DNA from: Chloroflexota bacterium
Lineage (GTDB): Bacteria > Chloroflexota > Dehalococcoidia > JACPQK01
Reading direction: 5' to 3'
Assembly (NCBI GenBank): GCA_016190505.1
Contig: JACPQM010000092.1
Span: 1-64,000, forward strand
Length of the DNA: 64,000 bases
How positions within the stretch are numbered: the stretch's first letter is position 1; each line of letters begins with the position of its first letter. The position numbers and the translations under genes were made by a program. The notes under the pieces were generated by a model. The model did not search any database. It worked only from the letters and a program-made list of their open reading frames with translations, and had not been told where the DNA came from. Of the stretch, positions 3,994 through 53,569 are shown piece by piece.

Positions 3994-5469
3994 ATGAAAG
4001 TGGGAGCAGTTCCGAAGTCGGAGCAGGCGCGGCGCCGCCGGCTGCTTATGGACGCCAGCCAGCCCGGACGCGTCGGCTCGACGCTGCCTGACCTGGACGT
4101 GCCCGCAGCCAGACTGCCCCCGAAAGCGCTGCTGCGGTCGGACCTCCCCTTGCCCGAAGTCAGTGAGCCTGAGGTGGTCCGCTACTTCACCTACCTCAGC
4201 CGCCTGAACTACGGCGTGGACTCGGGGTTCTACCCCCTGGGCAGTTGCACCATGAAGTACAACCCCAAGCGCCACGAGGACATCGCCCGGCAGCCGGGCT
4301 GTGCGCAGGTCCACCCCCTCCAGCCAGAGGCGACTGTCCAGGGTGCGCTCCAGCTCATGTATGAGCTCCAGGGTATGCTTCAGGAGGTTACCGGGCTGGC
4401 TGCCTGCACCCTGGCCCCGGCGGCGGGCGCCCAGGGCGAGCTTACGGGCATGATGGTGACCCGGGCCTACCACCTGTCGCGGGAGGACACGCAGCGACGC
4501 GTGGTGCTGGTGCCCGACGCTGCCCACGGCACCAACCCTGCCTCGGCAGCCATGTGCGGCTTTCAGGTGGCCACGGTATCCTCAGACCCGCGGGGTAACG
4601 TAGACCTGGGTGCATTGGGACGCCTGGTCACGCCGGAAGTGGCCGCGATCATGCTCACCATGCCCAATACGCTGGGGCTGTTCGACCCGAACATCCTCCA
4701 GGTATGCGAGCTGGTACACCGGCACGGCGGTTTGGTCTATGGCGATGGTGCCAATATGAACGCGCTGCTGGGCCAGGTGAAGCTGGGTGAGCTGGGCTTC
4801 GACATCGTCCATCTGAACTTGCACAAGACCTTCTCCTCGCCCCACGGTGGTGGCGGTCCCGGGGCCGGTCCCATCTGCGTTTCAACCTCGCTGGCCCCGT
4901 TCCTGCCCTCTCCCGTTGTCGAGCTCCGGGACGGTCGATACCGTCTGGCGACGCCGGAACACTCCACCGGCAGGCTCAGCGCCTTCTCCGGCAACTTCGG
5001 CGTGCTTCTGCGGGCGTATTGCTACATACGCACCCTGGGCGAGGCTGGGCTGCGGCAGGCGAGCCAGGACGCTGTGCTCAATGCCAACTACATCCGCAGC
5101 CTGCTCCGTACCGCCTATCACCTGCCGTACGACCGGACGTGCCTGCACGAAGTGGTCTTCTCGGCCTCACGGCAGCGGGCCAGCGGCGTTAAGGCGCTGG
5201 ACGTGTGCAAACGTTTGATAGACTACGGCTTCCACCCGCCCACCATGTACTTCCCGCTGGTGGTCGAGGAGGCCCTGATGATCGAGCCTACGGAGACCGA
5301 GGACAAGGAGACGCTGGACGCCTTCATCGCTGCCATGCGGGCCATCGCTCGCGAGGCGGACACCGACCCCGATGTCGTCAGGTCCGCGCCCCACGACACG
5401 CCCAACACGCGCTTAGATGAAGCGCGGGCGGCCCGCCAGCCCGACCTGCGCTGGCGCCCGCAGGCGTAG
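3994..5469 (+). CDS. gcvPB: glycine dehydrogenase (decarboxylating) subunit 2
   Basis: This is the C-terminal half of split P-protein and carries the PLP Schiff-base lysine: Lys278 in HLNLHKTFSSPHGGGGPGAG. Other family landmarks are YPLGSCTMKYNPK, PLQPEATVQGALQLMYELQ and DAAHGTNPASAAMCG. Length (491) is normal. It pairs with gcvPA at 1171-2469, from which it is separated by the small-gene cassette. Its TAG stop (5467-5469) forms part of the palindromic repeat that follows, with GTAGGGG reading directly into TCCCGACGTGTCGGGA. Confidence 0.95.
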   Translation: MKVGAVPKSEQARRRRLLMDASQPGRVGSTLPDLDVPAARLPPKALLRSDLPLPEVSEPEVVRYFTYLSRLNYGVDSGFYPLGSCTMKYNPKRHEDIARQPGCAQVHPLQPEATVQGALQLMYELQGMLQEVTGLAACTLAPAAGAQGELTGMMVTRAYHLSREDTQRRVVLVPDAAHGTNPASAAMCGFQVATVSSDPRGNVDLGALGRLVTPEVAAIMLTMPNTLGLFDPNILQVCELVHRHGGLVYGDGANMNALLGQVKLGELGFDIVHLNLHKTFSSPHGGGGPGAGPICVSTSLAPFLPSPVVELRDGRYRLATPEHSTGRLSAFSGNFGVLLRAYCYIRTLGEAGLRQASQDAVLNANYIRSLLRTAYHLPYDRTCLHEVVFSASRQRASGVKALDVCKRLIDYGFHPPTMYFPLVVEEALMIEPTETEDKETLDAFIAAMRAIAREADTDPDVVRSAPHDTPNTRLDEARAARQPDLRWRPQA

Positions 5470-5488
5470 GGGTCCCGACGTGTCGGGA
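5466..5488. repeat. palindrome overlapping gcvPB stop
   Basis: GTAGGGG at 5466-5472 runs into the 16-base palindrome TCCCGACGTGTCGGGA at 5473-5488. The TAG within GTAG is the gcvPB stop. It belongs to two palindrome families seen across the window (GTAGGGG ends and TCCCGACnnGTCGGGA cores). The following bases to about 5590 hold a further CTCAGGGC/CAAAGGGAAAGGGG repeat mosaic and no gene. Confidence 0.7.
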
Positions 5489-5595
5489 TGCCCGCCCTGG
5501 GGCGGGGCCGTCCGGGTTAGCGTAGCCCTCAGCCCTGCGGCAAGCTCAGGGCATGCCTCGCTTTCGCCCAAAGGGAAAGGGGAGACGAAGCCGCC

Positions 5596-5624
5596 TTGAC
5601 ATCTGGGGGCGATTGTTAAAGAAT
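5596..5624 (+). promoter_or_regulatory. promoter upstream of the histidine kinase
   Basis: TTGACA at 5596-5601 is followed after 17 bases by AAGAAT at 5619-5624, inside the only AT-rich patch of this intergenic stretch. The -35 box is consensus, the -10 is moderate. It would drive the kinase/regulator pair. Confidence 0.45.
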
Positions 5625-5780
5625 TGTAAATGACATAACAATCGGGTGGGCCCGGCACCGCCGGGTACGGGCGGGGACGCGAAAACCAGTGGTGGCTATC
5701 TAACAGGAGGCCGAGTTGGTGGGACCCCGCAACCAGGGCGCTCGACTGCACAGGCACCCGTATGGGGCAACTTTCCCGAC

Positions 5781-8700
5781 ATGAATCCCCTGTCACCGCT
5801 GGCCCGGCTGAGCTTGCGCTGGCAGCTTTTCCTCATAGTTTTCGCCGGCGTCATGCCTGTGATCGCGTTGATGCTGTATGGCGCTTCCCGAGACCGGGCG
5901 CACGAAGTATGGGAGATCAAGCGGGAGGCGCGGGAGGCTGCCCTAGACGCTGCCTGGCGGCACGAACAGCTAGTCCGGGGAGGGCAGGAGTTGCTGGTGG
6001 TGCTGGCACAGCAGCGAGAGGTGACTGGTGGCGATGCGGCAGCGTGCTCGGCCCTTCTGGCCCGCGTACTCCAGCAGTCTTCTGGCTACACTATGCTGGG
6101 TGTGGCTGACCTGAGTGGCGACGTATTTTGCAGCGCCCTGCCCCTCTCCGTTCCGGCCATCACCGTGAGCGACAGGGCCTATTTTCAGCGCGCCTACTCC
6201 ACTAAGGACTTCGCTGTGGGTACGTACGTTATGGGCCGCGCCAGCGGTAAACCCACTTTACCCATTGCCTACCCTGTCACCGGTGCCTCGGGTGCTGTGC
6301 AGGCTGTCCTGTTCGCTGGCCTGGACTCTGGCTGGCTCGCTGAGTTCGCCACCGGGTCCGAGGTGCCCTTCGATGTTGAAATCTCGGTCATGGACCGTAA
6401 CGGCGCCGTGCTTGCCCATTACCCAGAAGCCCACGAGGCCGGCCAACACGATGGAATGGAGAGCGTGTTCAGGGCCAATGTGGGCCAGAGCGGGGGAGGC
6501 TCGGCGAGCGCCAAAGACCACACCGGTAGGGACCGCTATTACGCATTTGTGCCCTTGCGCTGGAACGCTGAAGAGCCCCTCGCCTTTGTCGGTATGAGCT
6601 TTCCAGAAGAGGGTGCCTTCGCTGACATAGACCTGGCGCTGCGACGGAACATCGGTGGCCTGGTGGCTGTGGCAGTACTGGCCCTGATGGCCGCCTGGTG
6701 GGTGAGTAGGCGCCTGATAACGGGTCCCACCCAGAAGCTGGTCCGGGCTGCCAGTAGGTTGGCCGCTGGCGACCTGCGGGAGCGCAGCGGTCTGCCCCAC
6801 GGGAGTGGCGAGATGGGCCAATTGGCTGCTACTTTTGACGACATGGCTGGGGCGCTCCAGGCCAGGCAGGCGGCCGTGGAGCGCCTGAGCCACCATAACC
6901 AGACCATTCTGGACGCGGCAGGGGAAGGCATTTGCGGTGTGGACCCCCAGGGTACGGTCACTTTCATCAATGTCGCCGGCGCCCGGATGCTGGGTTGGGA
7001 AGTGCAGGAGCTGATCGGGAAACCCGCTCACCAGACCTGGCACCACTCCAGAGCAGGAGGCACTCTCTCCCCTCCTGAGAGCTGTGCTATTCTAGCATCG
7101 GTGGGGGAGGGTGCGGTCCTTCATGGAGAGGATGAGGTCTACTGGCGCCAGGATGGGACTGGCTTCCCGGTGGAGTACACCAGCAGTCCGATCAGGGACG
7201 GCCGTGGCCAGGTAACCGGCGCGGTGGTCACCTTCCGGGACATTACGGAGCGTAAGCAGGCGGAAGCGGAGCTGCGGCAGCGCTACCACGAGCTGTCGGC
7301 GCTCAACCAGGTCAGCGAGGTGGTGGCCGCGTCCCTAAGCCTAAGGGTAGTTGCTGCCACCGCCCTCGAGGCAGTCCTCTGGGTACTCGAGTTGGATGCG
7401 GGCGTCGTCCGGTATTTGGACCCGCTGACCCAGGAACTGGTGGCGCTGACTGACCACGGGTTGCCCGAGGGCATGGTGCAGCAACTGCGGGCGGCCCCGC
7501 GCCAGCCGGTGAGCCGGGGCCTGGCGGGCGCCGTAGCTCAGACAGGAGAGCCGCTCATCGTGAGTGACCTGCCTGATGACCCGCGACTGGTCAGTGACGC
7601 CATGAGGACGTCGGGGTTCCTGGCCTACATCGGGATTCCCCTCAAGGTCCAGAATGAGGTGGTGGGGGTGTACAGCGGCTTCTCGCGCGCCCACCGCACG
7701 TTCACCGCCGCGGAGATCGGGCTGGCCACTAGCATCGGCAACGTGGTAGGCATGGCCATAGCCAACGCTCGCTTATTCAATCGGGTAGAGGCTGCTGGGC
7801 GTGAATGGGAACGCACCTTTGACATCATGAGCGAAGGTGTGGCCATTCTGGACCCCGAGTTCCGCATTGTGCGGGCGAACCAGGCCCTGGCGCAGTTGGC
7901 AGGCTGCTCCCCCGAGGCCCTGGTGGGGGAGCTGTGCTATCGGGTTATGCACGGGGTGGACAGCCCAGTGACGGGGTGCCCCAGCGTTGCATGTGTGACC
8001 GAGAAGCGGTCGTGTGAGATGGTGCGTCAGGAGCCTTACCTGGGCAACCGTTGGTTGTACTTGCGGAGTGACCCGGTGCTCGGACCGCAGGGCGAACCGG
8101 TGAGCGTTGTCCATACGGTGCAGGACATCACCGACCTCAAGCGTAGTGAAGATGAATTGAAGCGGCGTTACCAGGAGCTAAGCGCCCTCTACCAGGTGAG
8201 CGAAGTGGTGACCGCCTCCCTGGACTTGAAGGTCGTGGCGACGACAGCCTTGGATGCGGTACTGAGGGTCCTGGACATGGATAGCGGGACCATCAGGTAT
8301 CTGGATGAGGCCACTCAGGAACTGGTATTGCTGGCCGACCAGGGCATGCCAGAGGAGATGGTCCAGGAGTTCCATGACCGGCCCAGGGTCGCCCTGGGCT
8401 TGGGTCTGTCGGGCACAGTGGCCCAGACCGGGAAGCCCCTAATAATTGAGGACATACTGCATGATCCCAGAGTAGCCTATGAATCTTCAAGGCGCGCGGG
8501 CTTTCGGGTCTATCTCGGCCTGCCTGTCAAGGTGCAGTCCAAGGTAGTGGGGGTGATAAGCGCCCGTTCCCGGCGCCAGCGTGCCTTCACCCCGGAAGAT
8601 ATGCAGTTGGTTAACAGCATTAGCGAGGTGGTGGGCATGGCCATCGCTAACGCCCGCCTCTTTGAGCAGGTCGAGGCGTCACTGGCGGAGAAAGAGGCGC

Positions 8701-9287
8701 TGCTCAAGGAGGTGCACCACCGGGTCAAGAACAACCTTCAGGTGATCTCCAGCCTGCTCGACTTGCAGGCCGGCTCCGTAGAAGACGAGGGGGTCCTACA
8801 CCTGTTCCGGGAGATGCAGAACCGGGTGCGCTCCATGGCATTGATCCACGAGCAACTGTACCGGGCGCCCGACCTGGCCAGGATCCAGTTTGACGTTTTC
8901 GCGCGGACGTTGACCAGTAACCTGTACCGGTCATGGGGTGTCAACTCTGATGTCATTGAACTCAGGGTGAACGTGGAGTATGTCCTGGTGCCTGTGGACA
9001 AGGCGGTCCCATTTGGGCTAATCATCAACGAGTTAGTGTCCAATGCTCTTAAACACGCTTTTCCAGACGGGCGGCATGGCGTAGTCAGTATTGACTTTTC
9101 CCTGGAACATGGTAGATTTTCCCTTGTGGTCAGGGATAATGGCGTCGGGGTGCCGGCAGATCTTAGTATTGAGGACGCCAGGACTCTTGGGCTCCAACTG
9201 GTGAACGCCCTTACCAGGCAATGCCGGGGCGTGATGGAGGTACACAGCGATGGTGGCACAGAGTTCAGGCTTACGTTCCCGGCCTAG
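5781..9287 (+). CDS. multi-sensor histidine kinase (Cache-HAMP-PAS-GAF-PAS-GAF-HisKA_2)
   Basis: This is a membrane sensor kinase of about 1168 residues. Order from the chosen start: TM1 (about 15-35), extracytoplasmic double-Cache-like sensor (about 40-280), TM2 (289-310), HAMP (312-365), PAS (370-490), GAF (503-665), PAS (675-790), GAF (795-955), then a HisKA_2-type core with [20 protein letters not shown]; the phospho-acceptor is His979 or His980. The ATPase domain has [20 protein letters not shown] and [10 protein letters not shown]. The two GAF units, each with its lead-in ([28 protein letters not shown]), are clearly an internal duplication. ATG 5781 is preferred since the 45 upstream codons are Gly/Pro-rich and precede the first membrane segment. 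It is paired with the regulator that follows. Confidence 0.93.
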
Positions 9288-9312
9288 TCCGCAGTTGAGG
9301 GAGGAAAGATCT

Positions 9313-9927
9313 GTGCCCAGCGCGCGCATCCTGGTTGTGGAAGACGAAAGCATAGTGGCCATGGACATCCAGACCCGCCTTGGCCGCTTGGGGTACTCGG
9401 TAGTGGGAGTTGCGGCGTCGGCGGAGGGTGCAATTGCCAAGGCGGGCGAGACCCGGCCTGACCTGGTGCTCATGGACATCAGGCTGGAGGGCGAAATGGA
9501 CGGGATCGAAGCCGCGGGGCGCATTCGCTCTGACTTCAACATCCCTGTGGTCTATGTCACCGCCTACGCTGATGAAGAGACCCTCCAACGGGCCAAAGTC
9601 ACCGAGCCGTTTGGCTACATCCTCAAGCCTTTCGAGACCCGCGAGCTGTTCACCACCATCGAGATGGGCTTATGCAAGCACAAGGGAGAGCAAGCGCTGC
9701 TGCAGAAGAACCAGGAGTTGGAGCAACGGGTCCTGGAGCTATCTGCGCTCAATACCATGTTCCAGCAGCATTTGGACTTGAGCTTCGACGCGGAAGAGCA
9801 CTACCGCGAGCTCCACGGTGCCGTGTGCACCTTTCTGGGAAGGTTGGGCGAGCTGACCGCCGAGCTGGAGGGAAAGAGCCAGGTGCAACCGTCTCCAACG
9901 CAGGTGGGGGACATGCAGGGCCAGTAG
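9313..9927 (+). CDS. response regulator, CheY-like with coiled-coil tail
   Basis: A receiver domain of about 125 residues ([15 protein letters not shown], phospho-Asp55 in VLMDIRL, VTAYAD, conserved Lys in [11 protein letters not shown]) is followed by a helical tail with heptad character ([20 protein letters not shown]) and no DNA-binding domain. Output is probably by protein contact or phosphorelay. This receiver type is the usual partner of HisKA_2 kinases. GTG 9313 is preferred, with GGGAGGAAAG just upstream; an in-frame ATG at 9250 would overlap the kinase gene. The TAG stop at 9925-9927 is part of the palindromic repeat that follows. Confidence 0.9.
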
Positions 9928-9993
9928 GGGCGAAGCATCCCGGCGTCAATGGACAGTCTTCGCCACCTGTGACTCGGGATGCTTCGCCCCTAC
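9924..9993. repeat. REP-like inverted repeat, GTAGGGGCGAAGCAT family
   Basis: Perfect 19-base arms GTAGGGGCGAAGCATCCCG (9924-9942) and its complement (9975-9993) enclose a 32-base loop. The left end supplies the TAG stop of the response regulator. A second copy of the same family lies at 58624-58693. It may also act as a terminator hairpin, but there is no T-run. Confidence 0.85.
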
Positions 9994-10047
9994 AAAACGG
10001 GTCACGTTTGACACCTCACTTCCCGTCTGGTAGCCTGAACGCGGGAG

Positions 10048-10950
10048 GTGGGATTGATTCTCCTCACGGGAGCGACGGGGTTTGTGGGCCGCAACGTGGC
10101 CAGTGCCCTGGTGGAGCGCGGCCACCGGCTGCGCTGTCTGGTGCGCCAGACCGCCAATCTGTCCCCGCTCAAGGGCCTGGACGTTGAGTTCGCCTACGGC
10201 GATGTCACTGACCCAGCCTCGCTGGCGCCAGCCACCAGTGGCGTGGACACCGTAATACACCTGGTAGCCATCATCCGCGAGAAAGGGGAATATACCTTTC
10301 GACGGGTGAACTTTCTGGGCACGGGGAACCTGGTGGAGGCGGCCAAGAACAGCGGCATCGGGGCATTCTTGCACATCAGCGTTATCGGGGCCAGCAGCGA
10401 TCCGCGCTACCCCTACCTCTATTCCAAGTGGCTGGGCGAGCAAGAGGTCATCAACAGCGGTATCCCTTACACCGTCTTCCGGTCGTCCCTAATCTTTGGG
10501 GAAGGGGACATCTTCTTCAACCAGTTGGCGCAGATTGTCCGCGTATATCCGGTAGTACCTGTTGTCGGGCCGGGAAAAGTGCGATTTCAACCAGTTTGGG
10601 TCAAGGATGTGGCCCGGGCTTTTGTGCAGGCGGTGGAGGGCAATGCGTTCAGAGGAAGGACGTTGTACCTTGGGGGGCCGGAGCACATCAGCTACGAGGG
10701 CATAATAGACGCGATAGTGGATACGCTCAAACTGCCGCGGTGGAAGGTGCACGTGCCTCTGGGCCTGGTCCGGCCTGCGGTGACCGCCATGGAGGCGCTG
10801 CTGCCGAACCCGCCGATCACCACCGTGGAGCTGGGCATGGTCTCCATTGACAACGTGACCGAGCCGGACGCGGTCGAAAAGGCCTTTGGCTTCCGCCCCG
10901 TGGGCTTCCGGGAGGCTGCTGGCTATCTGGTCTCCCGGAAAGGGAGATGA
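10048..10950 (+). CDS. NAD(P)-binding atypical SDR, NDUFA9/epimerase-like
   Basis: The Rossmann fold opens with LLTGATGFVGRNVASALVERG, and YSKWLGEQ follows in the second half of the NAD domain. The sequence pattern (FVQPVWVKDVA-like FQPVWVKDVARAFVQAV, YLGGPEHISYEGI) is that of atypical short-chain dehydrogenases related to the complex I NDUFA9 subunit and NAD-dependent epimerases. Substrate is unknown. Start may be GTG 10048 or TTG 10054; the latter has better spacing to GGGAGG. It is followed at 24 bases by folC. Confidence 0.82.
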   Translation: MGLILLTGATGFVGRNVASALVERGHRLRCLVRQTANLSPLKGLDVEFAYGDVTDPASLAPATSGVDTVIHLVAIIREKGEYTFRRVNFLGTGNLVEAAKNSGIGAFLHISVIGASSDPRYPYLYSKWLGEQEVINSGIPYTVFRSSLIFGEGDIFFNQLAQIVRVYPVVPVVGPGKVRFQPVWVKDVARAFVQAVEGNAFRGRTLYLGGPEHISYEGIIDAIVDTLKLPRWKVHVPLGLVRPAVTAMEALLPNPPITTVELGMVSIDNVTEPDAVEKAFGFRPVGFREAAGYLVSRKGR

Positions 10951-10974
10951 GAGGCACATAACCCGGGCCAAGGT

Positions 10975-12330
10975 ATGGACTACCGCCAGGCGCTAGCCTA
11001 CATCCACAGCTTCACTGATTTCGAGAAGTCCCCCGCGCTGCTCTACAACGCGGCCAACTATGATTTGCGCCGCATGGAGGCCCTCCTGGGCGCTCTGGGG
11101 CACCCGGAAAGGGAGGTCCCCACCGTCCACATCGCCGGCACCAAGGGCAAGGGGAGCACCGCGGCCATGATCGCCTCGGTGCTGACGGCGGCGGGCTACC
11201 GGACGGGGCTTTATACCTCGCCTCACCTCCATACCCTTCGGGAGCGAGTGCAGGTGGATGGCCAGCTCATCGCCGAGGCGGCGGTGGCTTCGCTGGTGGA
11301 ACGCCTGTCCCGACTCGTCGGGATGGACGTCATCCACCGCGACAGCAGCTACGGGCAACTCACCACCTTTGAGGTGCTTACCGCGCTGGCCTTCCTTCAC
11401 TTCCGCGAGCAGCGGGCCAGCTTCCAGGTTGTGGAGGCAGGCCTCGGGGGGCGCCTCGACGCGACCAATGTGGTCCGGCCCACGGTGGCGGTGGTTACCC
11501 CCATCAGCTATGACCACATGGATATTCTGGGGCATACGCTGGCTGAGATCGCCACACAGAAGGCGGGCATAATCAAGCCCGGGGCTGCGGTGGTGGTCGG
11601 CCCGCAGCCCGGAGAGGCGCTTGAGGTCCTTCTGGCCAGGTGCCAGGAGACCGGGGTCACGCCCATTCTGGTCGGCCAGGACGTCCGGTGGGCGCCGGGG
11701 GCCTTCGGTCTCACAGGCCAGGATGGGAACATCATGGGCCGGCTGCGCAAGTACGGTGTCCACATACCCCTGCTGGGACAGCACCAACTGGAAAACGCGG
11801 CGGTGGCGGTAGCGTGTCTTGAGGCGCTACAGGAGCAGGGCGTGACCATCGGCGGGCTGGCGTTGAGGCAGGGCTTGGCCTCAGTGCGCTGGCACGGGCG
11901 TCTGGAGGTCCTGGGCGAGCGGCCATGGCTAATTGTGGACGGCGCTCACAACGGCGATTCGGCGAAGCGGCTGCGGGAGGCCATCGAGGATTACTTCCCT
12001 GCGCGGAAGGTGGTCCTGGTCATGGGCGCATCCCGGGACAAGGACATGTCTGCCATCGCCCGGGAGCTGGCTCCGGTGGCCCAGGCGGTGGTGGTGACGC
12101 AGTCCCGAAACCCCCGGGCAGCCTCAGGGGAAAACCTGGCTGCGGTGTGGGCTGATCTGGGCTACGGTGCCCTGAAGACAGCCAGCGTGCCTGGGGCTGT
12201 AGAGGAGGGCCGCGCCCTGGCCGGCGCACAAGGGGTGGTGCTGGTCACCGGCTCGCTGTTTGTGGTGGCCGAGGCCCGGGAACACGTCCTGGGCTTGCTC
12301 TCCGAGGATGCCTGCGGAACCCCCCCGTAG
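10975..12330 (+). CDS. folC: bifunctional folylpolyglutamate/dihydrofolate synthase
   Basis: This Mur-ligase-fold enzyme adds glutamate to folates, and in many bacteria also makes dihydrofolate from dihydropteroate. Family landmarks are the P-loop VHIAGTKGKGSTAAMI, YTSPHLHTLRERVQVDG, QVVEAGLGGRLDATNVV, PISYDHMDILGHTL and VDGAHN. Length 451 is normal. Folate is the one-carbon acceptor of the glycine cleavage system encoded nearby. A TCCCGACTCGTCGGGA palindrome (about 11309-11324) lies inside the gene and is translated as part of LSRLVGM. The TAG stop lies at the edge of a palindromic repeat. Confidence 0.95.
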   Translation: MDYRQALAYIHSFTDFEKSPALLYNAANYDLRRMEALLGALGHPEREVPTVHIAGTKGKGSTAAMIASVLTAAGYRTGLYTSPHLHTLRERVQVDGQLIAEAAVASLVERLSRLVGMDVIHRDSSYGQLTTFEVLTALAFLHFREQRASFQVVEAGLGGRLDATNVVRPTVAVVTPISYDHMDILGHTLAEIATQKAGIIKPGAAVVVGPQPGEALEVLLARCQETGVTPILVGQDVRWAPGAFGLTGQDGNIMGRLRKYGVHIPLLGQHQLENAAVAVACLEALQEQGVTIGGLALRQGLASVRWHGRLEVLGERPWLIVDGAHNGDSAKRLREAIEDYFPARKVVLVMGASRDKDMSAIARELAPVAQAVVVTQSRNPRAASGENLAAVWADLGYGALKTASVPGAVEEGRALAGAQGVVLVTGSLFVVAEAREHVLGLLSEDACGTPP

Positions 12331-12390
12331 TCCCCCTTCGCAAGGGGGACAACAGGGGGTTACCAATACCGAAGGGGGACAACAGGGGGT
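12327..12390. repeat. hairpin and direct repeat between convergent folC and aldolase genes
   Basis: GTCCCCCTTCGCAAGGGGGAC (about 12330-12350) is a hairpin like that at 166-185. The 19-base sequence AAGGGGGACAACAGGGGGT occurs at 12342-12360 and again at 12372-12390. GTAG at 12327-12330 supplies the folC stop. It could serve as a bidirectional terminator. Confidence 0.7.
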
Positions 12391-13046: not shown

Positions 13047-13051
13047 AGCGG

Positions 13052-13300
13052 CTAGGCTGGTGTGGCGACGGCGTGGGTCAGCAGGTCCCCCAGGACACGC
13101 TCCAGGGCCATGGTATGGCTACAGGTGCCGTGGCTCAGGAAGAATGAGCACTGGCAACGCCAGGAACCCGATGAATAGGACAATGTGTAGTTGCTGTGGT
13201 CCCCGCGGAAGTCCAAAGTTAGCTCTCGGATGCGGACCCTGTCGCGTTCCTGGGCATAGCGGCGGGCTTTCTCGATCTTCCCGATAAGGCTAGACTGCAC
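13052..13300 (-). CDS. small SWIM zinc-finger protein
   Basis: The C-terminal half has the SWIM pattern CxC...CxH (WRCQCSFFLSHGTCSHTMAL) after a strand-rich YTLSYSSGSW. The N-terminus is a basic helix (IGKIEKARRYAQERDRV). I place the start at GTG 13300, preceded on the minus strand by AAGGAGGG; this gives 82 residues. A longer reading from TTG 13372 is open but lacks a ribosome-binding site. SWIM domains bind zinc and contact DNA or protein. Function here is unknown. Confidence 0.75.
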   Translation of the reverse strand: MQSSLIGKIEKARRYAQERDRVRIRELTLDFRGDHSNYTLSYSSGSWRCQCSFFLSHGTCSHTMALERVLGDLLTHAVATPA

Positions 13301-13412
13301 CTGCTCCCTCCTTATGGAAAAGCGACTCCTGACGACAGCCCTATTGTAGCGCGCCTCGGACGGATAGGTCAACTTGACCGTTATCTTGGAGGCTGATAGA
13401 ATCCTGGCAGAC

Positions 13413-13551: not shown

Positions 13552-13589
13552 TCGCGGCCCTGTCCTGCGAGCTTCGGCAAGGCTGCTTT

Positions 13590-13892: not shown

Positions 13893-13906
13893 GAGCTACC
13901 TCGTCC

Positions 13907-14191: not shown

Positions 14192-14288
14192 CCCTGGTAA
14201 TGATAGCGCGTAGCGCTAATAGTGTCAAGCGCTAAGGGCGCGGCGGCCGGCTTGTGTTGGGCCTAAGGGGGGTTGTGAGCCGAACTAC

Positions 14289-21596: not shown

Positions 21597-23270
21597 ATGG
21601 CATCTATGTTCGACCCTAACGTCTTAGACGAGGTCTGCCGCCGCAAGCGGGAGTGGGAGCAGCGCCACGCCTCTGCCGCCGAGCGGCGAGACTCGTTCAC
21701 TACGCTCTCCGGCCAGGCCGTAGAGCGCGTCTACACCCCGGCTGACATAGCCGACCTGGACTACGAGCGCGACCTGGGGTTGCCAGGCGAGTTCCCCTTC
21801 CTCCGCGGCGTGCACCCCACAGGCTACCGGGGCAGGCTGTGGACCATGCGCATGTTCTCTGGCTTTGGCTCCGCCGAGGAGTCCAACGCCCGCTACAAGT
21901 TCCTCCTCCAGCATGGTGAGACCGGCCTGTCCGTAGCCTTCGACTTCCCCACCCTGGTGGGCTATGACACCGACCACCGCGCGGCGCGGGGCGAGTTCGG
22001 CAAGTGCGGGGTCGCGGTCAACTCCCTGGCCGATATGGAGCTGCTCTTCGACGGCATCCCGGTGGACCAGATCACCACCTCCATGACCATCAACGGCCCC
22101 GCCGCGGTCGTCTGGGCTATGTACCTTGCCGCTGCCGAGAAGAGGGGCATCCCTATGGCGGCCCTGGGCGGGACAATCCAGAATGACATCCTTAAAGAGT
22201 ACAGCGCCCAGAACACCTACATCATTCCGCCGCGGCCTGCCCTGCGCATAGTGGTGGACACCTTCGAGTTCGGCACCAGGCACGTGCCCAGGTGGAACAC
22301 CATCAGCATCAGCGGCTACCACATCCGCGAGGCGGGGGCCACCGCCGTCCAGGAGTTGGCCTTCACCCTGGCCGACGGGCTGACGTATGTGGAGGCGGGG
22401 GTGGAGCGCGGGCTGAAGGTGGAGGAGTTCGCCCCCCGGCTGTCGTTCTTTTTCAACGTTCACAATGACTTTTTCGAAGAGATCGCCAAGTACCGGGCGG
22501 CCCGACGCATCTGGGCGCGAGAGTTGGCCCACCGCCACAGCGTCGAGGACCCACGCGCCCTGTGGCTGCGCTTCCACGCCCAGACCGCCGGCTGCGCGCT
22601 GACCGCCCAGCAGCCCGAGAACAACGCCGCCCGGGTGGCCCTTCAGGCCCTGGCCGCCGTGCTGGGCGGCGCTCAGTCGCTCCACACCAACAGTATGGAC
22701 GAGGCCCTGGCCCTGCCCTCCGAGCTGGCGGCGCGGGTAGCCCTGCGCACTCAGCAGATCATCGCCCACGAGTCCGGCGTGACCAATACCGTGGACCCCC
22801 TGGGCGGCTCGTACTACGTCGAGTGGCTCACCAACCAGATGGAGGCGGCCGTCTACGACTACTTCGACCGCATCGAGAAGTGGGGCGGGATGCTGGCCGC
22901 CGTCGAGCACGGGCACATCCAGCGGGAGATCGCCGACAGCGCCGCCCGCTACCAGCATGAAGTTGAGGCCCGCCAGCGCATCGTGGTGGGGGTCAACGAC
23001 TACGTGACCGAAGAGGCGGTCCAGATCCCCATACTCAAGATGGACCCCGAGGGGGAGCGCCGTCACCGGGCGCGGCTCAATCGGGTCCGCCGGGAGCGGG
23101 ACAACGAGGCCGTATCCGCGCGCCTGGCTGCCCTGGAAGCGGCCGCCCGGCGCTCAGACAACCTCATGCCCTGCATCCTGGACGCGGTGCGCGCCTACGC
23201 CACCCTGGGCGAAACCTGCGATGTCCTCCGCAAGGTCTTCGGGGAATACCAGCCGCTGGACATAGTGTAG
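21597..23270 (+). CDS. adenosylcobalamin-dependent acyl-CoA mutase large subunit
   Basis: This is the TIM-barrel substrate subunit of the methylmalonyl-CoA mutase family (557 residues). Landmarks are [74 protein letters not shown] (active-site His242) and [14 protein letters not shown]. There is no B12-binding DxHxxG domain, so a separate small subunit must exist elsewhere. At the substrate pocket, Phe87 and Gln205 replace the Tyr and Arg that contact the carboxylate in classical methylmalonyl-CoA mutase; Phe/Gln is the isobutyryl-CoA mutase pattern. I therefore avoid naming the substrate. Its TAG stop is part of the repeat downstream. Confidence 0.9.
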
Positions 23271-23341
23271 GTCGGGTTTCCCGCCCCGACCTACACGTGC
23301 CAGAGACAAACGTAGGGGCGGGTTTCAAACCCGCCCCTACG
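23267..23341. repeat. two palindromes after the mutase gene
   Basis: GTAGGTCGGG...CCCCGACCTAC at about 23267-23294 includes the mutase TAG stop. A second, 31-base palindrome at 23311-23341 has perfect 15-base arms beginning CGTAGGGGCGGGTTT. Both belong to the GTAG...CTAC set in this window. Confidence 0.85.
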
Positions 23342-32867: not shown

Positions 32868-32895
32868 GTAGGGGCGCACGGCCGTGCGCCCCTAC
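32868..32895. repeat. perfect 28-bp palindrome, GTAGGGGC family
   Basis: Each 14-base arm begins GTAGGGGCGCACGG. It ends the moaA operon region and lies before the MmgE/PrpD gene; it could form a cruciform or transcript hairpin. Confidence 0.9.
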
Positions 32896-32978: not shown

Positions 32979-34352
32979 ATGAGCATCACTGAAACCATCT
33001 CCCGCCACCTGGTGCGCACCAGCTATGAGGACCTGCCCCCAGAGGCGGTGGCCGCCACCAAGCAGCATATCCTGCACACGCTGGCCACCATCATGGGCGG
33101 CTCCGCAGCGCCCGGCTGTCCCCAGTTGGTGGACCTCGTGCGAAGCTGGGCCGGACGCGAAGAGAGCACGGTGCTGGTCCACGGCCACCGGGCACCGGCG
33201 CCCCACGCGGTGCTGGCCAACAGCACCATGGCCCACGCCCTGGACTTCTGCTGCAACGACGACCGCATCGCCTACAAGAGCAGCGTGTGCGCCGTTCCGG
33301 CGGCCCTGGCCCTGGCCGAGGGGCAGGGCGCCTCCGGCAAAGCGCTGATCACCGCCACCTGTCTGGGCATAGACCTGGGCATCCGCATCGGCCTCAACGC
33401 AGAGCCCAAACCCCAGCACATTGTGTCGCCCGTAGTAGGCCCCTTCGCATCGGCGGCCGCCGCGAGCAAGCTGCTGGGCCTGAGTGAAGAGGGCATGGCC
33501 AGCGCCCTGGGCATCGCCCTCTCCGAGTGCCGCGGCAGCGGCACCTCCACCAGCTCGCCAGCCCTCACCAAGCGCCTGGGCCCTGGCCTGGCCGCCCAGG
33601 GGGGCGTGACCGCCGCCCTGCTGGCCGCCAACGGCTTCCCGGCCCAGAGCGATGTGTTCGAGGGCCCTCGCGGCTACTATCAGACCTACCACCGGCGGGA
33701 GGGAGACCTGGAAGGACTCGTGGCCGGCCTGGGCCAGACCTTCGAGGTGGTCAACGTGTGGCCCAAGCCCTACCCGTCGTGCCGCTACACCCACGCCTCG
33801 ATTAACGCTGCCCTCTTGCTCCACCAGCAAGGCATCCGTGCCTCTGAGATCGCCGAGGTTAGGGTCCACCTTTGCCCCCGGGATGACCAGTCGGTGGGTC
33901 GTGGACGCAACCCCGAGGCCAAGGTGCACCCCCGGGGGGTAGTAGACGCCCAGTTCAGTGTGCCCTGGACCGTGGCTACGGCCCTGGTCAAGGGTCGGGT
34001 GTCCGTGGGCGACATGCTGCCTGAGGCCCTGGCCAACCCAGATGTCCATCGCTTCACGGACAAGGTCACGGTAGTCGTTGAGCCCGAGTTGGACGTCGGC
34101 CAGCGCGAGGTCAAGCCAGCTATCGTGGAAGTGCGAATGCGGAACGGGCAGACGTACTCGCAGCGGGTGGACTTCCCCAGGGGGAGCCCCGAGCAACCGG
34201 TGACGGCCGATGAGACCAGGCAGGTCTTTCGGGACTGCGCCGCCTACGCCGCCCGCCCCCTGTCTCCGGCCCAGGTGGAGGAGGCCATCGCTCTGGTAGA
34301 CCGGCTGGAGACGGTGGAGAACGTGTCCCTGCTAGTGAAAGTGCTGGTGTAG
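32979..34352 (+). CDS. MmgE/PrpD family protein (first copy)
   Basis: This 457-residue member of the 2-methylcitrate dehydratase/cis-aconitate decarboxylase family has STMAHALDFCCND (family HALD motif) and VWPKPYPSCRYTHASINAAL (Lys-Tyr/Pro-Cys-xx-His active region). It diverges from the two copies at 50-53 kb, which have HALDYD. Substrate unknown. Its TAG stop reads into GTAGGCCGGGTTTCC, the start of a palindrome-like repeat. Neighbours include other probable catabolic genes. Confidence 0.88.
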   Translation: MSITETISRHLVRTSYEDLPPEAVAATKQHILHTLATIMGGSAAPGCPQLVDLVRSWAGREESTVLVHGHRAPAPHAVLANSTMAHALDFCCNDDRIAYKSSVCAVPAALALAEGQGASGKALITATCLGIDLGIRIGLNAEPKPQHIVSPVVGPFASAAAASKLLGLSEEGMASALGIALSECRGSGTSTSSPALTKRLGPGLAAQGGVTAALLAANGFPAQSDVFEGPRGYYQTYHRREGDLEGLVAGLGQTFEVVNVWPKPYPSCRYTHASINAALLLHQQGIRASEIAEVRVHLCPRDDQSVGRGRNPEAKVHPRGVVDAQFSVPWTVATALVKGRVSVGDMLPEALANPDVHRFTDKVTVVVEPELDVGQREVKPAIVEVRMRNGQTYSQRVDFPRGSPEQPVTADETRQVFRDCAAYAARPLSPAQVEEAIALVDRLETVENVSLLVKVLV

Positions 34353-34393
34353 GCCGGGTTTCCTGGTCGTTGAGTCAGTATGGCGACGTTTCA

Positions 34394-36029: not shown

Positions 36030-36060
36030 GGGCGCCCCGATGCATCGGGGTGCCCCTACG
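36030..36060. repeat. palindrome supplying the stop of the collagen-like gene
   Basis: The perfect core CCCCGATGCATCGGGG (36035-36050) is flanked by AGGGCG and TGCCCCTACG. The CTA at 36056-36058 is the TAG stop of the minus-strand gene. Confidence 0.8.
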
Positions 36061-36730
36061 GCCTTCGGATGAAAATGGGAGCCACGGCCACGACCGCGCC
36101 ACCGACTGAGGCCTTGACTACGTAGCCGTCCGCGATGGTCATCAAGGGGATGGGCACGGCGGCGAAGATGGCGCCGGCAGCGTTGGCGTCAACCGGCTGG
36201 GACCACTTTTGAGGGCCGCCCGTGGTGGTAGCATAGCTCCATTCCAGCACGACCTGCTCGCCGGCGGTAAACCCGGCGCCGTATATCGCGAAGGTGTCCC
36301 CGGCTACAGTGGTAACAGGCAGGACCACCAGGTTCCTGGTGTTGGCTGGGCCAACCGGTCCCGGAACTCCCGGCGGGCCTGGCGGTCCCGCGTCCCCGAT
36401 AGCGCCGGCTGGTCCTTGGGGTCCTTGGGGCCCAACTGGCCCCGTTGATCCCTGGGGTCCCGCGGGGCCGGTAGGCCCTTGAGGTCCTGTGGCGCCTGCC
36501 TCACCGGCTGGCCCTGTCGGGCCGGTTGGCCCTCCTGGCCCCGTCGGGCCGGCAGGCCCGGTAGCGCCGGCTGGTCCGGTGGCGCCGGCTGGGCCAATAG
36601 CGCCCGCGGGGCCGGCAGGGCCGGTTGGCCCAGCGGGACCGGCCACGAACACCGCCGAGACCAGGGCCACCAAAGCCACCAGTAGAGCCCCTGCGGCAAG
36701 AACTCGGGAAACGGTATCTTTCTGGTTCAT
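36056..36730 (-). CDS. collagen-like membrane-anchored protein
   Basis: From ATG 36730: a short basic start, one membrane segment ([21 protein letters not shown]), then about 33 Gly-X-Y triplets ([13 protein letters not shown]...), and a C-terminal beta-rich domain of about 95 residues ([23 protein letters not shown]). It probably forms an extracellular trimeric stalk carrying a small Ig-like head. The gene family has no fixed role. The upstream open stretch to 36853 has no start support. Confidence 0.8.
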
Positions 36731-36866
36731 TGTTGATTGGACCTCAACAGGACCCTGCGGGTTCCAGACCCTTTTTGTACCTTCCGTCACGAGGCCCATA
36801 GCCGGGCCTCGGCATATCGGCCCGAGAATATACCCCTGATTGTCCAGTGTCAAGCCCCAACGGGAT

Positions 36867-37024
36867 GCGGGCTACAGGCTTCGGGCTACAGGCCACGGGC
36901 TACGGGCTACGGGCTACAGGCTTCGGGCCACGGGCTACAGGCTACGGGCTACGGGCTAAGGTCAACGGTCAGCAGACCACGGGCCGTACCTTCCTGAAGT
37001 CTGAAGCCCGCAGCCTGTAGCCCG
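36867..37024. repeat. CGGGCTAC tandem array with inverted copy
   Basis: Repeats of CGGGCTACAGG, CGGGCTACGGG and similar (36867-36959) are followed by an inverted copy (GAAGCCCGCAGCCTGTAGCC, about 37001-37020). The units are too irregular and have no spacers, so this is not a CRISPR. The gap 36731-37163 holds no gene apart from this and the promoter. Confidence 0.7.
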
Positions 37025-45074: not shown

Positions 45075-45219
45075 GAGGGAGCGGTGTATACGCCTGAAAA
45101 CGGCTGATACAATGACACCATATCCTGTGACCGAATAGCAATACGGTATTGGCTCACGTGTACTGGTTCATCGTGCGCCCCGGTGTGAGTCTCGCGCCAT
45201 GCGTGTGGCGGCAGCCGGG

Positions 45220-45248
45220 TTGACAGCCAAACGCTGAGGTGGTAGACT
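45220..45248 (+). promoter_or_regulatory. promoter of second solute-binding protein gene
   Basis: TTGACA (45220-45225), 17-base spacer, TAGACT (45243-45248), like the promoter at 43219. Each of the twins therefore has its own promoter. Confidence 0.75.
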
Positions 45249-45294
45249 CGGCGCAATTTCCACAAATCACCTGAGAAGGGTCAGGAGGAATGCT

Positions 45295-47076: not shown

Positions 47077-47104
47077 GCGGTTCCTTCTCTAGCAGATACC
47101 CACG

Positions 47105-47133
47105 CCCTGGCCCGCCTCATCGGCGGGCCAGGG
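47105..47133 (+). terminator. hairpin after the solute-binding protein genes
   Basis: CCCTGGCCCGCC (47105-47116) pairs with GGCGGGCCAGGG (47122-47133), loop TCATC, followed by TTACTTT. The T-run is short, so termination may be partial and the next gene may be read through. Confidence 0.65.
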
Positions 47134-47160
47134 TTACTTTGAGGAACGACGGAGGCTGTT

Positions 47161-49605: not shown

Positions 49606-49622
49606 GTGAAGGAGGGGGGACC

Positions 49623-49961
49623 ATGGCCCGCTGGCTCTACATGATCCATAGCAACTGCGCTGACCCCTCGAGGGAGGCCGAGTTCAACCAGTGGTATGAC
49701 CAGACCCACATACCCGATGTGCTGACCACGCCGGGCTTCCTACGTGCGTGGCGGTTTGAGAACCCGAAGCCGGGGCCAGGAGAGGGCAAGTTCGTAGCCG
49801 CGTACGAGATCGAGTCCGATGATATTGACGCCAGCCTGGCCGCCCTGATGGAGGGCGTCGCCCAGCGGCGGGCGCAAGGCCGTAGCTCGCCCCTCCTTAA
49901 GGTGACGGGCCGGAGCCTATACCGCCTGACCACCCCGGCCCGATCCCGGGCCGAACCATAG
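49623..49961 (+). CDS. EthD-like dimeric alpha/beta-barrel protein
   Basis: From ATG 49623 (112 residues, GGAGGGGGG upstream): EFNQWYDQTHIPDVLTTPGFLRAWRF is the N-x2-WY-x3-H-x-PD signature of small dimeric alpha/beta-barrel proteins (EthD-like group), which include degradation-pathway helpers and monooxygenases. It is coupled to the DMSO-reductase-like gene and may act on or near its product. Confidence 0.72.
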   Translation: MARWLYMIHSNCADPSREAEFNQWYDQTHIPDVLTTPGFLRAWRFENPKPGPGEGKFVAAYEIESDDIDASLAALMEGVAQRRAQGRSSPLLKVTGRSLYRLTTPARSRAEP

Positions 49962-49978
49962 TGGGGTGATCCATGCCG

Positions 49979-50043
49979 TAGGGGCGCTCCTGGGTGTGCG
50001 CCCTCGGGGGGACGGGGGGCAGACACGCCGGTCTGCCCCTACG
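49979..50043. repeat. double palindrome supplying MmgE/PrpD stop
   Basis: GTAGGGGCGC at about 49979 opens the block. GGGGCAGACACGCC/GGTCTGCCCC at its right end is a hairpin repeated at about 51483-51506. CTA at 50039-50041 is the TAG stop of the minus-strand gene. Confidence 0.8.
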
Positions 50044-51427
50044 GCTCTGATGCTGACAGGATGTCCGTAAGCTCGCGGACGTCTGGTACCTGGTCCAGGG
50101 CAAGCACCAGCTCGCTGCTGCGCTGGATGTCCGCCGGGTCGAGCAGGTGCTGGGCGCAGTCCCTGTACTTCCCGAGCACGTGTTCATCGCTCAAAGGTTG
50201 TGCTGGGTCTCCGCGGAGGACGTCCACCCGGTTGCTGTAGCTCCGGCCATCCACGGTGCGCACGGTCACGGGGTTGCCCACGAACACGGTGCCGGGGCCG
50301 ACGTCCGCCGAGCCAGGCCAGATGGGCAGGTACGGGCGGGACATGGTGACCTTTTGCATGGCGTGCACGATCTGGGCATCGTGCAGCTTCACAGCGGCGA
50401 AGGTGTCCAGCGTCAGCCGGCGGTCCACCAGGGCAGCAGCGATGCAGAAGGGCATGCTGAACATGGCCTCGTAGGGAGTTGCGGGATCATGGAAGGGGAG
50501 TACGTGTAGCGCCCTTTCCGACATGCCTACGTCTACCCCGGCGATGTCGCCGTCGGTAAGGCTGTGCTCATCCATTATCTTGAACAGAGCGTCTATGGCC
50601 CTGTGGGCATGCAGACCACAGGGGTATTTCTTGAGGCCGATGCCCGGTGACACGATGTAAAAGGGGTTGCCCAGATCTCTCGACATCCCTTCCGTATCGT
50701 AGCGCCCGGGCCCCACCAGGGTCTCGCAGAAGCCGTTCCTGGCCTCGATGATGCCGGGGTTGGCGGTGACGCCCTCTCGGGACATCAGGGCAGCCACCAC
50801 TCCGCTGCGGCCGGCGTTGCCCGCCCCTACGGGGACGAGCATAGTGCCGTGGTTGGCTGTCAGGCCGCAGGCCAGGTTGGCCGCGATGCCCAGGGCCATC
50901 CTGGTCTGGCGGACATCCAGCCGCAGGAGCCTGGCGCAAGCGGCGGCGGCCCCCAGGGAGCCGTACCAGCTCATCTGGTTCAGGCTCCGCTCCAGGCGCT
51001 TGTAGTCGCCATGGAGGGCCACCTTGCCCTCTACCTCCAGTCCCAGGACATAGGCGGTAAGCACCTCACGGCCTGAGGCCCGGAGCCAGTCACCCAGGGC
51101 GAGCACGGCGGGGAGGACCATGACGCAGGGATGGCCTGTTCGCATCCCGTAGGGATCGTAGTCCAGGGCGTGGGCCATGGTGCCGTTGGCCAGGGCGGCA
51201 TCGGCCACCTCGGTACGGAAGCCTCCGCCAATAACGGAGGCCTGGGGCGGGCTGCCCAGGGTCTTGACATAATGCACCACTGCCTGGCTGCCCGGCTCGC
51301 TGGAGCCAGCCATCGCCGCCGCCAGCGTGTCCAATGCGGTGCGCTTGGCCAGGTCTATGGCCTGGCGAGGTATGTCCTCGAAGGTGGTTTGTACCAGAAA
51401 TTGGGCGATCTTCTCGGTAGCACCCAT
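50039..51427 (-). CDS. MmgE/PrpD family protein (second copy)
   Basis: From ATG 51427 (GAGGAA upstream on its strand; 462 residues): MGATEKIAQFLVQTTFEDIPRQAIDLAKRTALDTLAAAMAG split over the family start, TMAHALDYDPYGM (HALD), and KKYPCGLHAHRAIDALF (active-site region). Close paralogue of the next gene on the same strand; long stretches of the last 100 codons are nearly identical at the base level. Substrate unknown. Confidence 0.9.
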   Translation of the reverse strand: MGATEKIAQFLVQTTFEDIPRQAIDLAKRTALDTLAAAMAGSSEPGSQAVVHYVKTLGSPPQASVIGGGFRTEVADAALANGTMAHALDYDPYGMRTGHPCVMVLPAVLALGDWLRASGREVLTAYVLGLEVEGKVALHGDYKRLERSLNQMSWYGSLGAAAACARLLRLDVRQTRMALGIAANLACGLTANHGTMLVPVGAGNAGRSGVVAALMSREGVTANPGIIEARNGFCETLVGPGRYDTEGMSRDLGNPFYIVSPGIGLKKYPCGLHAHRAIDALFKIMDEHSLTDGDIAGVDVGMSERALHVLPFHDPATPYEAMFSMPFCIAAALVDRRLTLDTFAAVKLHDAQIVHAMQKVTMSRPYLPIWPGSADVGPGTVFVGNPVTVRTVDGRSYSNRVDVLRGDPAQPLSDEHVLGKYRDCAQHLLDPADIQRSSELVLALDQVPDVRELTDILSASEP

Positions 51428-51472
51428 GGCGCATTCCTCATTATTACGTGGCAATGGCGCGTAGGCTTCGCG

Positions 51473-51511
51473 TAGGGGTGTGGGGGCAGACACGCCGGTC
51501 TGCCCCTACGC
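51473..51511. repeat. palindrome between the two MmgE/PrpD genes
   Basis: GTAGGGGTGTGGGGGCAGAC and GTCTGCCCCTAC form the arms; the inner hairpin equals that at about 50018-50041. CTA at 51506-51508 is the TAG stop of the third MmgE/PrpD gene. Confidence 0.8.
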
Positions 51512-52903
51512 CTGCCTCCCGTGTGACGCCATCAGGATGTCCATGACCTGCCGGATGTCCTCCACCTGGTCCAGGGCAAGCACCAGCTCGCTGCTGCGCT
51601 GGATGTCCGCCGGGTCGAGCAGGTGCTGGCCGCAGTCCCGGTACTTGGCGAGCAGATCGGTGTCGCTCAAGGGCTTCTCCGGGTCGCCGCGTAAGATGTC
51701 CACCCGGGCGCTGAAGGTCCTGCCATCCCTGGTGCGCACACTCACCGGATTGCCCACGAACACGGTGTCGGGGCCTACGTCGGCCAGCCCAGGCCAGATA
51801 GGCACGTTCGGGAAAGAGAGGTGCACTTTCTTGCGGGCCTCTACGATGCGCGCGTCGCTCAGCTTCTCCGGCGTGAACGTGCCCAGCGACACCTTGCGGT
51901 CTACCATGGCCGCCGCGATGCAGTGGGGCATACTGAACTTGGCCTGATAGGGCGTGCCTGGCTCGGAGTAGGCGAGCACCCGCAATGCCCGCTCCGAGGT
52001 GCCCACGTCCACTTCGGCGATATCCTTGTCGCCGAGGTCATGCTCGGCCATGAGCTGGAACATGGCGTCCAGCGCCCGGTGGGTGTGATAGCAGCTCGGG
52101 TATTTCTTGATCCCGATGCCGGGTGAAACGATGTAGAACGGGTTGCCCAGGCCGTCAGCCAAGTGGTCGGTGTGATAGTTTCCCGGCCCGACCAGAGTGT
52201 ACAGGAAACCACTTTTTGTCTCGATGATGTCGGGGTTGGCGGTGATGTTCTCGCGGGCCATGAGGGCAGCCACCACCCCATTGCGGCAGGCATTGCCGGC
52301 GCTCATAGGGGCGATCATCGTGCCGTGGCTAGCGGACACCCCACAGGCGAAGTTGGCGGCGAGGCCCAGGGCGTGCCTGGTCTGGTTGGCGTCGAGGCGG
52401 AGTAGCCTGGCGCAGGCGGCTGCGGACCCCAGGGTCCCGTACCAGGACTGGTTGTTGAGGCTGCGCTCCATGAGCTTGAAGTCGGCATGGAGGGCTACCT
52501 TGCCCTCCACCTCCAGTCCTACGATGTAGGCGGTGAGCACTTCCCGGCCCGAGGCGCCGAGCTGGTCGCCCAGGCTGAGCAACGCGGGCAGGACCATGAC
52601 GCTAGGGTGGCCCATCTTCATGCCGCAGTCGTCGTAGTCCAAGGCATGTGCAATGCAACCGTTGGCCAGGGCGGCATCGGCCACGGCAGCCCGGAAACCT
52701 CCGCTGACGATGGAGGCCTGGGGCGGGCCGCCCAGGTTCTTGACATAACGGGTGATAGCCAGGCTTCCGGGCTCGGCGGTCCCGGCCAGGGCTGCCGCCA
52801 GCGTATCCAGGGCGGTGCGCTTGGCCAGCTCCACCGCCTGTCGAGGTATGTCCTCAAAGGTGGTCTGGGCCACAAACTGGGCGATCTTCTCTGTTGTACC
52901 CAC
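51506..52903 (-). CDS. MmgE/PrpD family protein (third copy)
   Basis: From GTG 52903 (AAGGAGGAA upstream on its strand; 465 residues): TTEKIAQFVAQTTFEDIPRQ, CIAHALDYDDCGMKMGHPSV (HALDYDD intact), KKYPSCYHTHRALDAMF. The tandem copy at 50039-51427 is clearly a duplication. The upstream in-frame stretch overlaps the transposase gene and is not used. Reaction: a dehydratase or decarboxylase of a small polycarboxylate is the family expectation. Confidence 0.9.
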   Translation of the reverse strand: MGTTEKIAQFVAQTTFEDIPRQAVELAKRTALDTLAAALAGTAEPGSLAITRYVKNLGGPPQASIVSGGFRAAVADAALANGCIAHALDYDDCGMKMGHPSVMVLPALLSLGDQLGASGREVLTAYIVGLEVEGKVALHADFKLMERSLNNQSWYGTLGSAAACARLLRLDANQTRHALGLAANFACGVSASHGTMIAPMSAGNACRNGVVAALMARENITANPDIIETKSGFLYTLVGPGNYHTDHLADGLGNPFYIVSPGIGIKKYPSCYHTHRALDAMFQLMAEHDLGDKDIAEVDVGTSERALRVLAYSEPGTPYQAKFSMPHCIAAAMVDRKVSLGTFTPEKLSDARIVEARKKVHLSFPNVPIWPGLADVGPDTVFVGNPVSVRTRDGRTFSARVDILRGDPEKPLSDTDLLAKYRDCGQHLLDPADIQRSSELVLALDQVEDIRQVMDILMASHGRQA

Positions 52904-52952
52904 GGTGTATTCCTCCTTGGCGCTTGTTAGGCGGGCCCTACCACAATCTCCT

Positions 52953-53525
52953 TCAGGTGAGCCACGCGTCCTCCGGTTCCGGTCCGACGGCCGCTGGGTT
53001 CTCGGGATCAAATGTCCAACGGGCCGGATTGTTGGCAATGTATTGGCGGATGTGGTGTAGGGACGCTTCGTTGCGGATGATGTGTTCGTAGTAGTTGCGT
53101 TGCCAGACAGGCAGGCCCGGTGCAACTCTAACGACATTGATACGTTTGGTCGTCGCCGACTTGAACCCGCGGACAATCGCGCCGACGGTCTGTGATGGCG
53201 AGCGAAACGTAGGGGCGTATTGCGTAGGGGCGTATTGCAATACGCCCCTACGTTCGCCAATTATTACAACGATGGCATGGAAATGGTTGGGCATGACTAC
53301 GTATTCGTCCAATACCGCTTGCGGGCGTAGTTGTGGTGTATTCAGCCATTGGCTCTCGATGGCAAGGCCGGCGGAGTTTGGGCTCATGCCGCCGTTCACG
53401 ATTTCCCCAAACAAGCATTCCCTGTCATGCGCAACGATGGTCAAGAAATACGCCCCGGCCTGTGCGTAGTCATATCCTGGTAGGCGAATTGAACGACGGT
53501 GGTAGCCTTCAAGAACAGCGCTCAT
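52953..53525 (-). CDS. REP-associated tyrosine transposase (RAYT)
   Basis: This Y1_Tnp/HUH single-strand transposase-like protein has RRSIRLPGYDYAQAGAYFLTI, the HUH motif VVMPNHFHAIVVI, and the late Tyr segment VWQRNYYEHIIRNE, with a final IRQYIANNPARW. RAYTs act on short palindromic REP sequences. It is flanked by, and contains, GTAGGGGCGTATTG palindromes; the internal copy is translated as RRGVLQYAPTQYAPT. ATG 53525 is chosen; GTG 53540 is also possible. It is probably the source of the REP family dispersed in this window. Confidence 0.93.
   Translation of the reverse strand: MSAVLEGYHRRSIRLPGYDYAQAGAYFLTIVAHDRECLFGEIVNGGMSPNSAGLAIESQWLNTPQLRPQAVLDEYVVMPNHFHAIVVIIGERRGVLQYAPTQYAPTFRSPSQTVGAIVRGFKSATTKRINVVRVAPGLPVWQRNYYEHIIRNEASLHHIRQYIANNPARWTFDPENPAAVGPEPEDAWLT
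53208..53252. repeat. REP palindrome inside the transposase gene
   Basis: A perfect 30-base palindrome (53223-53252; arm CGTAGGGGCGTATTG) is preceded by an extra half-copy at 53208-53222. It is in frame with the transposase. Confidence 0.9.
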
Positions 53526-53539
53526 GGCACGAGTCAGCA

Positions 53540-53569
53540 CGTAGGGGCGTATTGCAGTACGCCCCTACG
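53540..53569. repeat. REP palindrome between transposase and oxidoreductase genes
   Basis: The same CGTAGGGGCGTATTG arms as the copy in the transposase gene, with one mismatch at the centre. CTA at 53565-53567 is the TAG stop of the minus-strand oxidoreductase gene. Confidence 0.9.

Follow-up and report, generated by a model that had tools for sequence, protein, structure and literature searches.

GTAG-type REP elements coincide with the TAG stop codons of many genes in an uncultured Chloroflexota genome

Why do palindromic repeats so often begin on the stop codon of a gene? This question was raised by the window, that is, the whole 64,000-nucleotide stretch analysed here (contig C84). A preliminary description had named nine genes whose TAG stop overlaps a repeat. 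It proposed that the repeats supply the stop, through insertion aimed at TAG/CTA where genes end or through selection for elements that terminate cleanly. Checking the window sequence, we found all nine TAG/CTA triplets in place. Pfam searches show that all nine ORFs are real genes, encoding the C-terminal part of GcvP, a response regulator, a Mur ligase (folC), a methylmalonyl-CoA mutase, three MmgE/PrpD proteins, a collagen-repeat protein, and a molybdopterin oxidoreductase. The overlap with repeats was confirmed: a clear hairpin lies at eight of the nine stops, and at the remaining one it is decayed.

Five of these genes lie on the plus strand. The stop of gcvPB (3994 to 5469) falls in the REP GTAGGGGTCCCGACGTGTCGGGATGCCC at 5466 to 5493. 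The response regulator gene (9250 to 9927) ends in a two-ended REP of 70 nt at 9924 to 9993, with perfect 19-bp arms and a spacing of 32 nt. At the folC stop (10975 to 12330), the hairpin GTAGTCCCCCTTCGCAAGGGGGAC occupies 12327 to 12350 and has the ends GTAGTCCCCCTT..AAGGGGGAC. The mutase gene (21597 to 23270) shares its TAG with the palindrome GTAGGTCGGGTTTCCCGCCCCGACCTAC at 23267 to 23294, with the ends GTAGGTCGGG..CCCCGACCTAC; a second palindrome, GTAGGGGCGGGTTTCAAACCCGCCCCTAC, is intergenic and shortly 3′ of it (23312 to 23340, strand not given). The stop of the MmgE/PrpD 1 gene (32979 to 34352) lies in the stem GTAGGCCGGGTTTCCTGGTC at 34349 to 34368; this element, GTAGGCCGGGTTTCCTGG, is the decayed one and pairs by G-U pairs only.

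The other four genes and their elements are on the minus strand. The collagen-repeat gene (36056 to 36853) ends in GTAGGGGCACCCCGATGCATCGGGGCGCCC at 36030 to 36059. The MmgE/PrpD 2 (50039 to 51493) and MmgE/PrpD 3 (51506 to 53260) genes end in the same element, GTAGGGGCAGACCGGCGTGTCTGCCCC, at 50016 to 50042 and 51483 to 51509, respectively. The stop of oxidoreductase B (53565 to 56135) is part of the 28-bp palindrome GTAGGGGCGTACTGCAATACGCCCCTAC at 53541 to 53568. A tenth case, missed by the preliminary description, fits partially: the gene at 56738 to 58492 (minus strand) carries GTAGGGG at its stop (56735 to 56741, minus strand) and ends with GTAGGGGGACCC, without a clean REP stem. For comparison, the 28-bp palindrome GTAGGGGCGCACGGCCGTGCGCCCCTAC at 32868 to 32895 (strand not given) is intergenic and off any stop.

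In six of the nine, the element starts with GTAGGGG, at 5466 and 9924 on the plus strand and, reading down the minus strand, at 36059, 50042, 51509, and 53568. The folC, mutase, and MmgE/PrpD 1 elements belong to other families, with the stems GTAGTCCCCC, GTAGGTCGGG, and the decayed GTAGGCCGGG. Performing short-range folding, we find that the stem starts within 3 bases of the G preceding the stop in eight of the nine genes; the response-regulator element is the exception and becomes visible only over a longer stretch. Two other features of the region were noticed. Positions 36909 to 36976 hold a short, degenerate tandem array built from GTAGCCT/GTAGCCC units, which is found near REPs on contigs C19, C27, C44, and C51 too. 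The large neighbouring genes at 62537 to 65008 and 65565 to 68363 (plus strand) agree exactly in their last bases and in what follows the stop (CTAGGCAGACTCAGGCAATAGGCATTGTAGGGGCGA); they are a recent duplication.

The elements belong to the GTAG-type REPs, short hairpins whose 5′ foot is GTAG, the kind linked to RAYT (IS200-like HUH) transposases. They are palindromic with one or two GTAG ends, occur in high copy number and in many stem families, and are mostly extragenic, and the genome has a RAYT gene. Exact GTAGGGGC...GCCCCTAC palindromes number 185 genome-wide, compared with 1 for the pattern read backwards. Within 2.08 Mb, a search restricted to 20 to 75 nt gave 181 two-ended elements against 26 in the reversed control, and their commonest length is 28 nt. 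Of 161 GTAG hairpins, 115 have no overlap with a called gene, 27 sit at the edge of one, and 19 are inside. A second abundant palindrome family, GTAGCGGCAATTCATGAATTGCCGCTAC (for example, C4:4810-4837), has a start that occurs 40 times in the sample described below (both ends counted) and once on a stop. Similar palindromes are present in 15 of 40 class-level relatives, mostly in fewer copies.

These features match the GTAG-tagged REPs of Di Nocera et al. 2013 (PMC3733652), which are short palindromes with a GTAG end, sometimes two-ended, form many families per genome, are mostly extragenic and downstream of genes, and have Chloroflexi among their listed hosts. The likeness concerns such class features rather than individual stem families, and many elements here differ in being 28-bp palindromes that are nearly perfect and have a GTAG at each end. 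In the words of the same authors, GTAG termini "often provide" flanking ORFs with their TAG stop; REPs directly 3′ of rayt stop codons were described by Nunvar et al. 2010 (PMC2817692). The overlap, which the preliminary description did not know as a described property of REPs, is therefore not new. A literature search for stop codons overlapped by REPs or MITEs returned nothing further beyond these two papers and PMC12306157. The strength of the overlap in this lineage and the occupancy-per-GTAG test given below may be new.

We counted the overlap in 60 contigs (2,075,487 bp, 64% of this single genome of 3.23 Mb in 100 contigs), using 1616 gene calls from a home-made hexamer model. In this sample, 108 of the 1616 genes (~7%) end with GTAG followed by GGG, while the same ending with the other stops, GTGA+GGG and GTAA+GGG, was seen in 7 genes each. 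Relative to the stop, GTAGGGG occurs 108 times at offset 0 and at most 5 times at every other single offset. More than 50 distinct 14-base beginnings are found at the stops, so the overlap characterises the class as a whole rather than a single family. Could dense repeats and heavy TAG usage produce this by coincidence? The repeats are abundant, and TAG is the commonest stop (842 of 1616 genes, 52%). Nevertheless, uniform intergenic placement would give about 1.1 cases at offset 0 where 108 are seen, and the peak is one base wide. The offset histogram thus refutes coincidence, to which we give practically no credence: the overlap exceeds what repeat density and TAG usage predict, as the preliminary description had supposed. 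The scarcity of GTAGGGG at offsets +1 to +7 was dropped as a signal; the sequence itself rules out +1 and +2, and the other offsets hold too few cases to judge. As a separate observation, the TAG share stays at ~49% without the GTAGGGG cases, which is unusual for a bacterium of 64% GC; in long ORFs, TAG makes up 50% of stops here and 44% in the relative G083, compared with 22% across a mixed sample of other bacteria.

The next question is whether the elements brought these stops with them. According to such a stop donation, elements carrying GTAG would insert randomly in gene tails, an in-frame TAG would become the new stop of a slightly shortened or lengthened protein, and insertions in other frames would be purged. 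It is the reading implied by the word "provide" in Di Nocera et al. 2013 (PMC3733652), and as purging predicts, read-through insertions are rare: GTAGGGG occurs 15 times over the last 90 nt of genes (-90 to -1) and 107 times over the next 90 (+1 to +90). To this extent the proposed selection for elements that terminate cleanly holds, but alone it cannot yield 108 cases. Random tail insertion implies two read-through frames for each clean stop. Counting hairpins with perfect arms, we find 48 at offset 0; the final 90 nt of genes hold 5 that are read through, and 81 lie in the first 90 nt downstream of stops. Donation predicts about 2 to 3 at offset 0 if this frame was purged like the others, and about 27 to 30 without any purging.

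Donated stops should also shift gene ends, and we compared these in 137 genes ending with GTAG+GG, a set slightly looser than GTAG+GGG. Homologues were mostly below 70% identity, the sampled relatives sharing only the class. The gcvPB stop lies between -1 and +9 amino acids from the ends of 29 orthologues; in a separate contig search, gcvPB reached at most 66% identity. The end positions of genes with an element did not differ from those of other genes, neither against orthologues (n = 14, p = 0.29) nor against paralogues without the element (n = 54, p = 0.96). In the paralogue comparison, 43% of the element genes and ~57% of the others end within 2 amino acids of the homologue, a slightly larger displacement in the former that counts against ancestral stops. 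In the paralogue pairs C59_66523/C59_65667 and C35_91094/C35_90328, one member carries an element and the other does not, and both end with the same G-TAG stop. The partner has G-TAG at its homologous stop in 6 of 18 cases against ~18% in controls, a difference that is not significant. A DNA-level search for empty sites with joined element flanks gave no clean case, only self hits, overlaps, and low-complexity matches.

Most of the shared TAGs look ancestral, because orthologues and paralogues stop at the same place, and for most genes the claim that the stop comes from the repeats seems wrong. Donation does occur in single cases: in C34_471, the TAG of the partner is missing and the reading frame ends ten codons further on, at a REP; in C2_31783, the frame runs through a first element and ends at the following one. 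Donation thus looks like a minority of cases, and as the general account we consider it unlikely. We also note the close paralogues at C14:2802 and C52:35844, which have identical G-TAG stops but differ in what comes next, a REP hairpin (GGGCGCGATTCATCGCGCCC) in one and a different repeat (GGGCTTCAGACTTCAGACTACGGGC) in the other.

We then asked how often a GTAG is followed by a hairpin at stops and elsewhere; the comparison is partly circular, since the elements themselves carry GTAG. Hairpins follow 78 of 391 GTAGs at stops (19.9%) and 561 of 3233 other intergenic GTAGs (17.4%; p = 0.21). With perfect arms, the values are 12.3% and 10.1% (p = 0.19). In coding DNA, they fall to 6.5% and, with perfect arms, 0.6%. 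Donation offers no reason for this equal occupancy. Compared with intergenic DNA, stop positions are 61-fold denser in GTAG and 73-fold denser in hairpins, which means that most of the excess at offset 0 follows from the density of GTAG. A C before the GTAG goes with higher occupancy both at stops and between genes, and this C may be part of the element. The simpler GTAG+GGG count speaks against parity, with 27.6% of stop GTAGs occupied against 13.2% of intergenic GTAGs. We tentatively explain this gap by the decay of elements in which selection maintains the TAG.

TAG stops after A, C, or T, as well as TGA and TAA stops, have hairpins at background levels (0 to 6.6%). The proposed targeting to TAG/CTA at gene ends therefore stands only in part: GTAG is occupied, but CTAG, ATAG, and TTAG stops are at background, and intergenic GTAGs elsewhere are occupied as often as those at stops. 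The same data bear on a functional role, in which a hairpin at the stop codon would tune termination, mRNA stability, or transcription and would be retained preferentially at offset 0. PMC12306157 cites a report that REPs of E. coli lower translation when they lie no more than 15 nt from a stop, and occupancy here is higher in the first 100 nt past stops than farther off. However, at the same distance from stops other than G-TAG, hairpins are not in excess. This confinement argues against function, as a need for a hairpin should not depend on GTAG. Stop GTAGs are also no more occupied than nearby downstream GTAGs (17 to 22%, perfect arms). We regard function as improbable, more so than donation.

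Searching for the enzymes that might move the elements, we found three matches to Y1 transposases in the genome. A clear RAYT gene is on contig C59 (NF047646, 198 bits, cut-off 80). A borderline RAYT-like gene at C77:13690-14259 scores 70 bits, under the NCBIfam cut-off of 80. GTAGGGG REPs flank it on both sides: its own stop lies in the GTAG of one, and the other, on the 5′ side, is nearly symmetric, so its orientation is ambiguous. This arrangement and the clear C59 gene resemble the REPtrons and RAYT genes described before (PMC2817692; PMC8266576); unlike in those systems, the C77 gene falls below the cut-off, and we infer the mobilisation of REPs by RAYT proteins here. The third match is nearer to IS200. 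It is an IS200-type transposase gene beside the hairpins GCCCCGCCGTTCGCGGCGGG and CCCGCCCTGAAGGGCGGGGCTA (C18:12093-13200), apparently a separate IS200/IS605 element. The IS200/IS605 elements (IS608, ISDra2) are comparable in having single-strand, hairpin-recognising Y1 transposases and site choice through a tetranucleotide, with this IS200-type match as a further likeness. In contrast to them, the REPs here are 20 to 75 nt and without a transposase of their own, being too short to encode one.

In summary, we favour the reading that the overlap arises mainly from elements occupying GTAG beyond coding sequence or right at its border, with a probability of roughly 0.6. Elements moved by RAYT proteins would settle at GTAG tetranucleotides present before their arrival, used as a target or as homology on insertion; for this step and its chemistry, we rely on inference. 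A gene ending with G-TAG would offer a GTAG with a non-coding 3′ side, a harmless site, since a hairpin directly after such a stop costs nothing. Purifying selection would clear insertions inside genes, and selection on the stop would preserve the shared TAG while the rest of the element decays. A TAG frozen in this way would explain why two-ended elements are found at 27 stops against 108 GTAGGGG stops, the far-end CTAC being kept in only about one-quarter. In a minority of genes, the element does supply a new or back-up stop. We put forward GTAG as the target as a hypothesis, because experiments on other RAYTs treat GTAG as a guide adjoining the hairpin and not as the target, with cleavage at CT or CA (PMC8266576). 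The stricter form, that host GTAG is the landing site of REPs, G-TAG gene ends are safe harbours, and the overlap results from target choice plus purifying selection and not from donation, is possible, at somewhat less than even odds.

The overlap is thus a REP property reported before, apparently unquantified in the literature found, and very strong (~7% of genes) in this lineage of uncultured Chloroflexota. Whether REPs donate stops or land on them becomes a simple count: what share of GTAGs is followed by a hairpin at stops, and what share elsewhere. If GTAG is where REPs land, the choice of TAG after G as a stop would shape where the elements can live.
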